Shown here piece by piece: positions 38,229 to 40,161 of a stretch of DNA of 64,000 nucleotides; the first letter of the stretch is position 1; every line of letters begins with the position of its first letter. The position numbers and the translations under genes were made by a program. A model generated the notes under the pieces. It was not told the origin of the DNA, searched no databases, and saw only the letters and a list, made by a program, of their open reading frames with translations. The DNA lies in the NCBI RefSeq assembly GCF_002000055.1, contig NZ_MVBD01000004.1, forward strand, positions 62,001 through 126,000, read 5' to 3'. Source of the stretch: Marinicella sediminis. Its GTDB lineage: Bacteria > Pseudomonadota > Gammaproteobacteria > Xanthomonadales > Marinicellaceae.

Positions 38229-38723
38229 TTAATCGAGTACCTGATGGTCCACTCTGATGCGGATATGCTCGCCTGGGTAGTTATTCATCCAGGTCTGATG
38301 GCTGACACCCAGGTATTCATAAGTGACATCATAACCTGACAGTTGCTCTTCTTGATGATAGCGGGTTTCGGTGCGACAGCGTACCGGTGTGTGCCTGTGC
38401 TTGTTTTTCCTGGCCCCTACCGAAGCCCCAATCATGATACCCACAGCTGTAGACACATCACGCCCGCTGCCTTTACCAAAACGGTTGCCAATGGCCCCAC
38501 CGAGTAAACCACCAATGACGGCTCCCGATCGACTGCGTTCTTCAGAACGATGGTGACGGTATCCCCGATGATCACACACTTCACGACGGTCAGGGACTGA
38601 AACAGTGCGATACACCGGACGTACATCGAGCACCGGTGCATATACCACCTGTTCGTTGTACCTGCCTGCAACAGCAATCAAGGGCAACAACAGTAAACTG
38701 CTAAAGGTTAATAATTTATTCAT
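38229..38723 (-). CDS. Glycine-zipper 2TM-domain envelope protein
   Basis: 164 aa. Signal peptide cleaved near AVAGRY, then a basic His/Arg-rich linker. A glycine-zipper segment follows (SGAVIGGLLGGAIGNRFGKG and VGIMIGASVGA), as in Rickettsia 17-kDa antigen or SlyB-like proteins. The second half has two cysteines. ATG 38723 with GGAG six bases upstream is preferred over the ATG at 38741. It lies about 120 bases downstream of the structured RNA element on the same strand. Role in envelope integrity is inference. Confidence 0.75.
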   Translation of the reverse strand: MNKLLTFSSLLLLPLIAVAGRYNEQVVYAPVLDVRPVYRTVSVPDRREVCDHRGYRHHRSEERSRSGAVIGGLLGGAIGNRFGKGSGRDVSTAVGIMIGASVGARKNKHRHTPVRCRTETRYHQEEQLSGYDVTYEYLGVSHQTWMNNYPGEHIRIRVDHQVLD

Positions 38724-38835
38724 GTTCTTCTCCAGGGTCATTTGTGACCATCATAGGAGGAACGAAATGAATTTTGGCTGAATAAGAAAAATGTGTTAAT
38801 TCTGGATTCAGGTAAACAACGAAAGGATTGAAAGC

Positions 38836-38960
38836 GTAAAAGGTTGGCCGGGTAAGAACCCGGCCAACAAAGGTGATGTCGTTCTAATAAAAACGGCATC
38901 AACCATGGTCGCTACCAGGACTTTGACCATATCCTATAGAAGTAGCGACTTCTTACCCAC
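38836..38960 (-). ncRNA. Structured RNA element, unknown family (sRNA or leader)
   Basis: No protein gene fits 38742-39018. On the minus strand a transcript starting near 38960 would fold as a three-way junction. P1 is GGGTAAGAA pairing perfectly with TTCTTACCC (38958-38950 with 38858-38850). One arm is GTCGCTAC/GTAGCGAC (38949-38942 with 38915-38908), with an inner AGGA/TCCT. The other arm is a 12-bp stem (38904-38892 with 38883-38872, one wobble, one bulge). The 3' strand of P1 lies inside a perfect 11-bp hairpin with a 4-base loop (38868-38843), followed by CTTTTACGCTTT. P1 and this terminal hairpin exclude each other. A promoter sits at the right distance upstream. Confidence 0.6.
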
Positions 38961-38966
38961 GTGAAT

Positions 38967-38995
38967 ATTGTAAGCAAAAAAATTTAAAATGAGAA
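38967..38995 (-). promoter_or_regulatory. Promoter of the structured RNA element
   Basis: Minus strand: TTCTCA (38995-38990), 17-base AT-rich spacer, TACAAT (38972-38967). The predicted start, near 38960, is directly at the 5' strand of the closing stem. Confidence 0.6.
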
Positions 38996-39018
38996 GTTCT
39001 TTTATGAGTAATACGGGA

Positions 39019-40161
39019 TTAAAACTGCAGTTGCAGCACATCTGCTTCGAGCATTGGCTTACCAAACAGGTAACCCTGACCATAATCAAAGCCCAGGTCC
39101 TTCAGGGTTTTCAGCTGTTCTGCAACCTCAACCCCTTCTGCCACGAGTTGTGTCTGTAACTGTTTGGCCATCATAGCAATGGTTTGCAAGATGGTTTGAT
39201 GGCGTTTACTTTTGTTCATGTTGCGGATGAATACCTGATCCACTTTCAACACATCAAAACACAATTCCACCAACTGTTCCATCCCCGAATGACCAGTACC
39301 GAAATCATCAGCACAAACCGGAAAACCAATGTCCTGACACTTTTTCAACCACTTCCTCGCGAGGTTAAAATCAACCACCATGGTTTCAGTGATTTCCAGC
39401 TTCAGCCGGTTAGGGCTGATGCCATGCGATTTGATCTTTTGTAACACGCGATTGAGGAATTGGTCATCGTCCAATTGCTTGGAAGATACATTGATATTGA
39501 TAAACACATGATCAGGCAATCTGGCCAACAACTCAATGGCCCGGGAAAACACCAGATCGCCAACTTCAATGATTAAATCGGTTTCTTCTGCCAATGCAAT
39601 GAATTCAACCGGCGAGATAAACCCGCGGGTAGGATGACTCCAGCGACTGAGGGCTTCAAAACCTGCAATCCGATCATCCTGGATATCATGAATTGGCTGA
39701 AACACAGTTTGCACATCTCCCTGATTGATAGCTGTACGGAGTTCACTTTCCAGTTTGAACTTTGACAAACCGGCTTGTTCGATGACTGAAGCAACCTGAT
39801 CCAGCAACAGGTTGTTGCTGGTGTTTGAACTGGGCAACATGGAGCGGAACCGTTTCAGCAATACCCCAACCAGGGCTTTGACAATTGGATCACTTTCCGC
39901 CAGGCGGTTGGTGATCTGGGCGGTTCGGACCTCCAATAAAGTCAATGCCGTGATGGCCTTGGCAGATGTTGATCTGGGCGACTGGTCCAGCACCCCCATC
40001 TCACCAAATAACTCACCTTCACTCAGGATATCAATGATCGCTCCGGTGGACTCAACAAAGATTTCCACCTGCCCACTTTCTATGATGTAAGCACAGTCAG
40101 AACGGTCACCGCCATGAAAAATGATATCCCCTTTGTTGTATTGTTTGATGTGATAACTCAT
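39019..40161 (-). CDS. Cyclic-nucleotide-binding domain - EAL phosphodiesterase
   Basis: 380 aa in two parts. Residues 1-110 form a CRP-type cNMP-binding beta-roll (GDIIFHGGDRSDCAYIIESG; GELFGEMGVLDQSPRSTSA). Residues about 135-380 form an EAL domain. All catalytic motifs look intact: FEALSR, NVSSKQ, EITETM, DDFGTGHSG, KVDQVF, AEGVE and GQGYLFGKP. It is therefore predicted to hydrolyse c-di-GMP under control of a cyclic nucleotide or other ligand. No membrane segment is present. The coupling of the two signals is inference. Confidence 0.88.
   Translation of the reverse strand: MSYHIKQYNKGDIIFHGGDRSDCAYIIESGQVEIFVESTGAIIDILSEGELFGEMGVLDQSPRSTSAKAITALTLLEVRTAQITNRLAESDPIVKALVGVLLKRFRSMLPSSNTSNNLLLDQVASVIEQAGLSKFKLESELRTAINQGDVQTVFQPIHDIQDDRIAGFEALSRWSHPTRGFISPVEFIALAEETDLIIEVGDLVFSRAIELLARLPDHVFININVSSKQLDDDQFLNRVLQKIKSHGISPNRLKLEITETMVVDFNLARKWLKKCQDIGFPVCADDFGTGHSGMEQLVELCFDVLKVDQVFIRNMNKSKRHQTILQTIAMMAKQLQTQLVAEGVEVAEQLKTLKDLGFDYGQGYLFGKPMLEADVLQLQF

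Follow-up and report, generated by a model that had tools for sequence, protein, structure and literature searches.

A conserved structured RNA gene of Marinicella, probably a stand-alone small RNA, with relatives in a sister genus

The RNA gene and its predicted features

The window analysed here is a stretch of 64,000 nucleotides from Marinicella sediminis (contig NZ_MVBD01000004.1). A gene for a structured RNA lies on its minus strand at approximately 38960-38838, in the intergenic region between a gene for an EAL phosphodiesterase and a gene for a glycine-zipper protein. The RNA is ~123 nt long in the window, ranges from 116 to 125 nt across Marinicella, and has a single match in its own genome. 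The EAL phosphodiesterase (window 39019-40161) has an N-terminal cyclic-nucleotide-binding domain. The following features were assigned, with pairing and conservation taken from an alignment (A1) of 17 Marinicella sequences:

38967..38995, minus strand: promoter-like sequence from a promoter scan, -35 TTCTCA, 17-nt spacer, -10 TACAAT
38838..38960, minus strand: small RNA, GTGGGTAAG to CCTTTT, predicted ends (A1)
38952..38960, minus strand: invariant 5' end GTGGGTAAG, candidate seed; identical in 17/17 (A1)
38942..38949, minus strand: P1 5' strand GTCGCTAC; 100% of cells paired, two-sided changes at 4/8 pairs
38931..38935, minus strand: P2 5' strand AGGAT; 100% of cells paired, two-sided changes at 4/5 pairs
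38922..38930, minus strand: 9-nt P2 loop ATGGTCAAA, second candidate contact site; GGTCAAA in 16/17 Marinicella
38917..38921, minus strand: P2 3' strand GTCCT; same pair test as the P2 5' strand
38908..38915, minus strand: P1 3' strand GTAGCGAC; same pair test as the P1 5' strand
38872..38904, minus strand: P3 hairpin, variable in sequence; 83.8% of cells paired, two-sided changes at 11/12 pairs
38838..38868, minus strand: P4 terminator-like hairpin with short T4 tail; 95.6% of cells paired, two-sided changes at 6/12 pairs
38767..38782, minus strand: TTCAG-N6-TTCAT direct repeat, the upstream box of the glycine-zipper gene, outside the RNA; exact in 15/17 genomes, one mismatch in 2

The promoter that the earlier note had read from this DNA (TTCTCA-17-TACAAT) is present letter for letter at 38995-38967 of the minus strand; six sites of this type occur in the 3-kb region scanned, compared to 3.8 expected, and the match alone means little. 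The 45 bp ahead of the RNA have a mean pairwise identity of 59% among the 17 Marinicella sequences, compared to 33% farther upstream. For the RNA itself the mean identity is 69%, and 28-33% in its flanks. The two internal arms and the terminal hairpin of the same note were also found, the latter as an 11-bp hairpin, GTTGGCCGGGT/ACCCGGCCAAC, at 38868-38843, followed by TTTT. This hairpin was absent from the list produced by a terminator scan, probably because the T run is only four nucleotides long. The folding energy of the RNA was -57.2 kcal/mol, compared to -33.3 kcal/mol for shuffled sequences (z -6.2), and none of 200 shuffles folded as well.

Distribution of the RNA in Marinicellaceae

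A DNA search of 101 genomes (the window's own and those of its relatives) detected the RNA in 17, all belonging to the genus of the window. A covariance model (R1) built from 17 copies gave one match each, at E ≤ 0.001, in 17 of 18 Marinicella genomes, as well as divergent copies in three genomes of a sister genus. A second model (R2) was built from 21 sequences of alignment A4, which had been fitted to the structure of R1. It identified the RNA in all 11 sister-genus genomes, with 23 matches in total, 21 of them at E ≤ 0.001. Seven of these 11 genomes had two to five R2 matches, some in tandem; in these counts, contigs C77 and C39 of genome G023 look like halves of one locus, so that its three matches may be two copies, and L106 and L118 are probably one locus.

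Genera g2 (one genome) and g4 (three genomes) yielded no R2 match at E ≤ 0.01, and G001, the one remaining genome of the 18 from Marinicella, had none even at E ≤ 1. A weak R2 match in the g4 genome G022 (E 0.05) was treated as chance, as were the weak second matches of six Marinicella genomes (E 0.05-0.85). One of the latter, L089 (G013, M. litoralis-like; E 0.05), has GGTCAAAG in a predicted hairpin and may not be chance.

On a larger scale, an exact pattern was run against 299 genomes of the order and matched in 3 of the 266 outside the family, compared to 12 with a match to the reversed-pattern control, while among 274 genomes of the class, searched with R2 under stricter filters, the genome of the window was the only one with a match. 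A pattern search of genome contigs yielded 32 loci, of which 24 were judged by eye to be real and 8 to be chance; six of the latter lie inside what we take to be era and RNase Y genes. The named carriers of the pattern were M. litoralis, M. pacifica, M. gelatinilytica, M. meishanensis, M. marina, uncultured Marinicella, and uncultured relatives such as NORP309. Viral contigs searched with the pattern gave no matches.

Across the two genera, the sequence of the terminal hairpin differs but the layout of the RNA is kept. GTGGGTAA stands at the 5' end of 17, and the GGTCAAA loop is present in 16, of the 19 aligned sister-genus copies. The Rfam search suggested by the earlier note brought no assignment to a known family: at curated thresholds, Rfam 15 had no match in the window or in nine relative loci, and at E up to 10 the region 38700-39050 gave nine matches of 12.1-20.3 bits, against gathering scores of 33-139.

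Covariation and competing pairings

Alignment A1 supports four helices, P1 (8 pairs), P2 (5), P3 (12) and P4 (12). Its structure combines two RNAalifold runs, one with ribosum scoring, which supplied P3, and one with default settings, which supplied the other helices; four outer pairs, GGGU/ACCU, were omitted. Cells were paired in 93.3% of cases, a proportion that is somewhat self-favouring, since the structure was derived from the alignment on which it was tested, and two-sided changes were found at 25 of 37 pairs. The covariation score was reached by none of 500 shuffles, and slid versions of the structure paired 44.4% of cells at most. The sister-genus alignment (A6; 16 distinct sequences) comprises 19 of the 23 matches; the four left out are two variants and two copies truncated at contig ends. 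With the default RNAalifold structure, and with the same self-favouring tendency, 97.8% of its cells were paired; 16 of 29 pairs had two-sided changes, and P1 was nearly fixed (1/6 pairs).

In both alignments, all 500 shuffles and all slid controls were exceeded by the covariation score, by the cells paired, and by the two-sided changes, whether counted as pairs or as cells. The number of further pair types did not rise above the shuffles, being reached by 269 of 500 for A1 and 181 of 500 for the sister genus. The self-contained structured RNA proposed by the earlier note is supported by this conservation and covariation, by the conserved promoter block and by the terminator-like hairpin.

Two features that the earlier note did not mention stand out: the 5' end, invariantly GTGGGTAAG, and the P2 stem, which closes a conserved loop of 9 nt. 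The 5' end and the P2 loop stay fixed while the stems vary, and they are mostly unpaired; the mean unpaired probability in Marinicella was 0.78 for the 5' end and 0.91 for the P2 loop with GGTCAAA. Folded singly, L005 formed P2 differently and the sister-genus sequence L084 lacked P1/P2. A coding reading of the RNA was rejected, as no frame is conserved and the longest frames vary in place and length. AGTGGGATT, together with the P3 loop TCCACGG, occurs in all 19 aligned sister-genus copies (A6) and in none of the 17 Marinicella sequences (AGTGGGA, TCCACGG); GUGG and CCAC in the sister-genus RNA could form a pseudoknot.

The covariation test set by the earlier note, which the four helices passed, went against the 9-bp closing stem, GGGTAAGAA/TTCTTACCC, on which the earlier note had built a fold competing with the terminal hairpin. 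Its strands match perfectly in the letters, but none of the nine pairs shows a two-sided change, 77.5% of cells are paired in the 17 sequences, and many relatives have the stem disrupted. In the RNA of the window none of the nine pairs has a pairing probability above 0.0, and a fold forced to include the stem is 10.7 kcal/mol less stable (-42.0 compared to -52.7 kcal/mol). A further alternative proposed there, ATGGTC/GACCAT, fared no better (74.5% of cells paired, no two-sided change).

If the RNA belonged to the leader of the glycine-zipper gene and acted in cis as a riboswitch or attenuator, two shorter pairings that touch the terminator in Marinicella would be of interest. The loop GGUCAA can pair with UUGGCC of the terminator in 99% of Marinicella cells, and ACCU at the base of the terminator can pair with the 5' GGGU in 100% (all 17), as it does when L005 and L014 are folded singly. 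However, the strands of both pairings are fixed or almost fixed in Marinicella; the former shows no covariation, the latter is invariant and so without covariation either way, and the unconserved closing stem and ATGGTC/GACCAT also speak against such a leader. Moreover, since the sister-genus terminator is different in sequence and lacks ACCU at its base (19/19 copies) while the 5' end and the loop are kept, these two pairings do not explain the conservation between genera. No conserved, covarying pairing that would exclude the terminator was found in the alignments.

Genomic context of the RNA

The order EAL gene, RNA, glycine-zipper gene was found in 17/17 Marinicella. There, and at six sister-genus loci, the RNA is upstream of and co-directional with the glycine-zipper gene, with a terminator-like hairpin between the RNA body and this gene, as would suit a leader. 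However, the glycine-zipper gene has its own TTCAG-N6-TTCAT box, which we take to resemble the binding box of an OmpR/PhoB-type regulator, and which lies downstream of the RNA's terminator in the RNA-bearing Marinicella. The box is also present in G001 and G028, neither of which has the RNA at that place; in G001, lacking the RNA cassette, it is found ~30 nt past the EAL stop codon.

In the sister genus, 20 loci were examined. Six copies of the RNA are located ahead of a glycine-zipper gene, and nine, overlapping those six, are divergent from a putative helix-turn-helix gene. At five loci the RNA is located behind a gene labelled CAAX-protease-like from a sub-threshold Pfam match, and at four it faces a convergent gene, presumably pntB-like, all four also having the divergent helix-turn-helix gene. 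No neighbouring gene is constant across both genera, and the linkage to one downstream gene that could be regulated, fixed in Marinicella (17/17), fails in the sister genus. These contexts fit a separate transcription unit and do not fit the leader of one gene. Given the conserved box of the glycine-zipper gene, the Marinicella genome that has the box without the RNA and the four copies facing a convergent gene, a leader function is highly unlikely. The riboswitch or attenuator with competing stems put forward in the earlier note is disfavoured on the same grounds, its competing stem being unconserved, the gene's box being kept without the RNA, and some sister-genus copies having no co-directional gene behind them.

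The RNA of the window starts ~58 nt past the EAL stop codon, and it might accordingly be the tail of the EAL mRNA, freed by processing. We regard such a 3'-end-derived RNA as very improbable. The promoter block is conserved in Marinicella, and in the sister genus, where the copies are located behind other genes or divergent from one, 21 of the 22 upstream sequences inspected by eye have TATAAT in the position expected.

A probable stand-alone small RNA

We consider it probable, as judged from sequence, that the RNA is a stand-alone and probably trans-acting sRNA of ~123 nt, representing a new family and perhaps dependent on Hfq. The predicted gene has the make-up of a separate unit, with a conserved promoter and a terminator, and transcription would begin at this promoter and stop at the RNA's own intrinsic terminator. 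Target mRNAs would base-pair with the open 5' end GUGGGUAAG and with the exposed loop GGUCAAA, probably with the assistance of Hfq, while P1/P2, P3 and P4 may present the contact sites and protect the RNA ends. A stable RNA that carries a terminator-like hairpin and whose 5' end and loop are conserved and mostly open has the properties of an antisense sRNA. The hfq gene was found in 32 of 33 genomes of the family, and ProQ in none of the 33. The option of an sRNA, which the earlier note had named beside the riboswitch, gains support from the conservation, the covariation, the conserved promoter block and the terminator-like hairpin.

Some observations point the other way. The possible GGGU/ACCU pairing in all 17 Marinicella argues against a 5' end that is always open, and the constant position between the same two genes in this genus (17/17), with the glycine-zipper gene also following at six sister-genus loci, would fit a local rather than a trans role. 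A tract of four T is short for an Hfq-bound terminator. The complement of the 5' seed, sought as one pattern ahead of ATG in 18 genomes, showed no excess, with 210 matches (including the RNA's own gene, on the other strand) compared to 223 for the reversed control, with no recurring target among the matches listed.

Among known systems, RybB is an intrinsically terminated Hfq-type antisense sRNA with a 5'-terminal seed. The Marinicella RNA resembles RybB-like sRNAs in having a promoter-like block, a conserved 5' end that is mostly open, and several hairpins, one of them terminator-like, as well as in the Hfq encoded by the family, and differs from them in its short T4 tail and in having no Rfam match. 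Part of the sister genus, with several similar copies per genome, some in tandem, recalls the sibling sRNAs NgncR_162/163 of Neisseria and LhrC of Listeria, whereas Marinicella has one strong copy per genome; the sequence comparison with those sRNAs was the one made through Rfam. In the portion of the literature on Marinicella small or noncoding RNA that was available to us, no description of an sRNA was found. The RNA would thus provide a new sRNA family, with alignments and covariance models, for a bacterial family without sRNA work in the literature searched.

The main rival to an antisense sRNA is a protein-binding RNA, in which the GGUCAAA-loop hairpin would titrate an RNA-binding protein, as RNAs of the CsrB/RsmY type do with CsrA, and additional copies would raise the dose. 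CsrB, RsmY and RsmZ are sponge RNAs, and the likeness to them consists in a stand-alone RNA with an exposed conserved motif that is repeated in one variant. The fixed loop on a variable closing stem and the multiple matches seen in 7 of the 11 genomes of the sister genus are consistent with titration, as are two variants: L081 (G030, contig C207) has the P1/P2 unit twice and lacks GTGGGTAA, and L088 retains the hairpin without GTGGGTAA. Nevertheless, we consider titration unlikely. The 5' end of standard copies is as conserved as the loop, and L081 folds best into a single long nested hairpin instead of two separate units. Furthermore, the loop of this RNA is GGUCAAA, not GGA, and a standard RNA has a single loop of this kind. 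GGA, the motif typical of CsrA sites, is not kept, AGGA/GGGA in P2 being replaced by GAAG in three Marinicella sequences, and inspection of A1 by eye revealed no repeated GGA in hairpin loops. The L081 variant (L081:500-674) is located behind the same TATAAT..AAGCTC promoter-like stretch.

Promoter palindromes and an adjacent putative regulator in the sister genus

The upstream regions of 20 of the 23 sister-genus matches, some of them near-identical copies, were analyzed for palindromes. Within the segment from -70 to -23, 14 of the 20 have their best inverted repeat centred 43-44 nt ahead of GTGGG, with half-sites of three types, TGTGCA, TGTGTA and TGTACA. The shuffle probabilities of these 14 palindromes range from 0 to 0.20, and the argument for them therefore rests on their common position and on the paired changes of the half-sites. 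The other six copies have their best repeat elsewhere (shuffle probability 0.03-0.97), with an imperfect or second-best palindrome seen by eye at the common place in L036, L037 and L080. No such promoter palindrome was found in the 17 Marinicella sequences, where the sole strong one (L006) is AT-rich and located elsewhere.

The protein encoded next to the RNA at L119:3398-4180 matched no Pfam or NCBIfam family at E 0.01; it and its relatives gave weak helix-turn-helix hints below cut-offs. Two or more matches to this protein are present in 27 of 33 family genomes. This adjacent putative helix-turn-helix regulator may switch on many of the sister-genus copies through the promoter palindrome.

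A tentative and rather doubtful extension of the sRNA reading is that the RNA represents a modular sRNA cassette family of Marinicellaceae, single in Marinicella but amplified in the sister genus and coupled there to a family of putative helix-turn-helix regulators. The half-site types, compared by eye, would track the regulator copies, every regulator driving an sRNA sibling of its own. The hairpin with GGUCAAA would then act as the working unit, because the variants keep or repeat this hairpin while losing the 5' end. Such siblings, beside regulator paralogues with promoter palindromes, would be a natural series for the study of sRNA gain, copying and rewiring.

A small secreted-looking protein with tandem VVGDGSNVS repeats is encoded at L119:3074-3394, and its relatives adjoin the helix-turn-helix gene at seven sister-genus loci.
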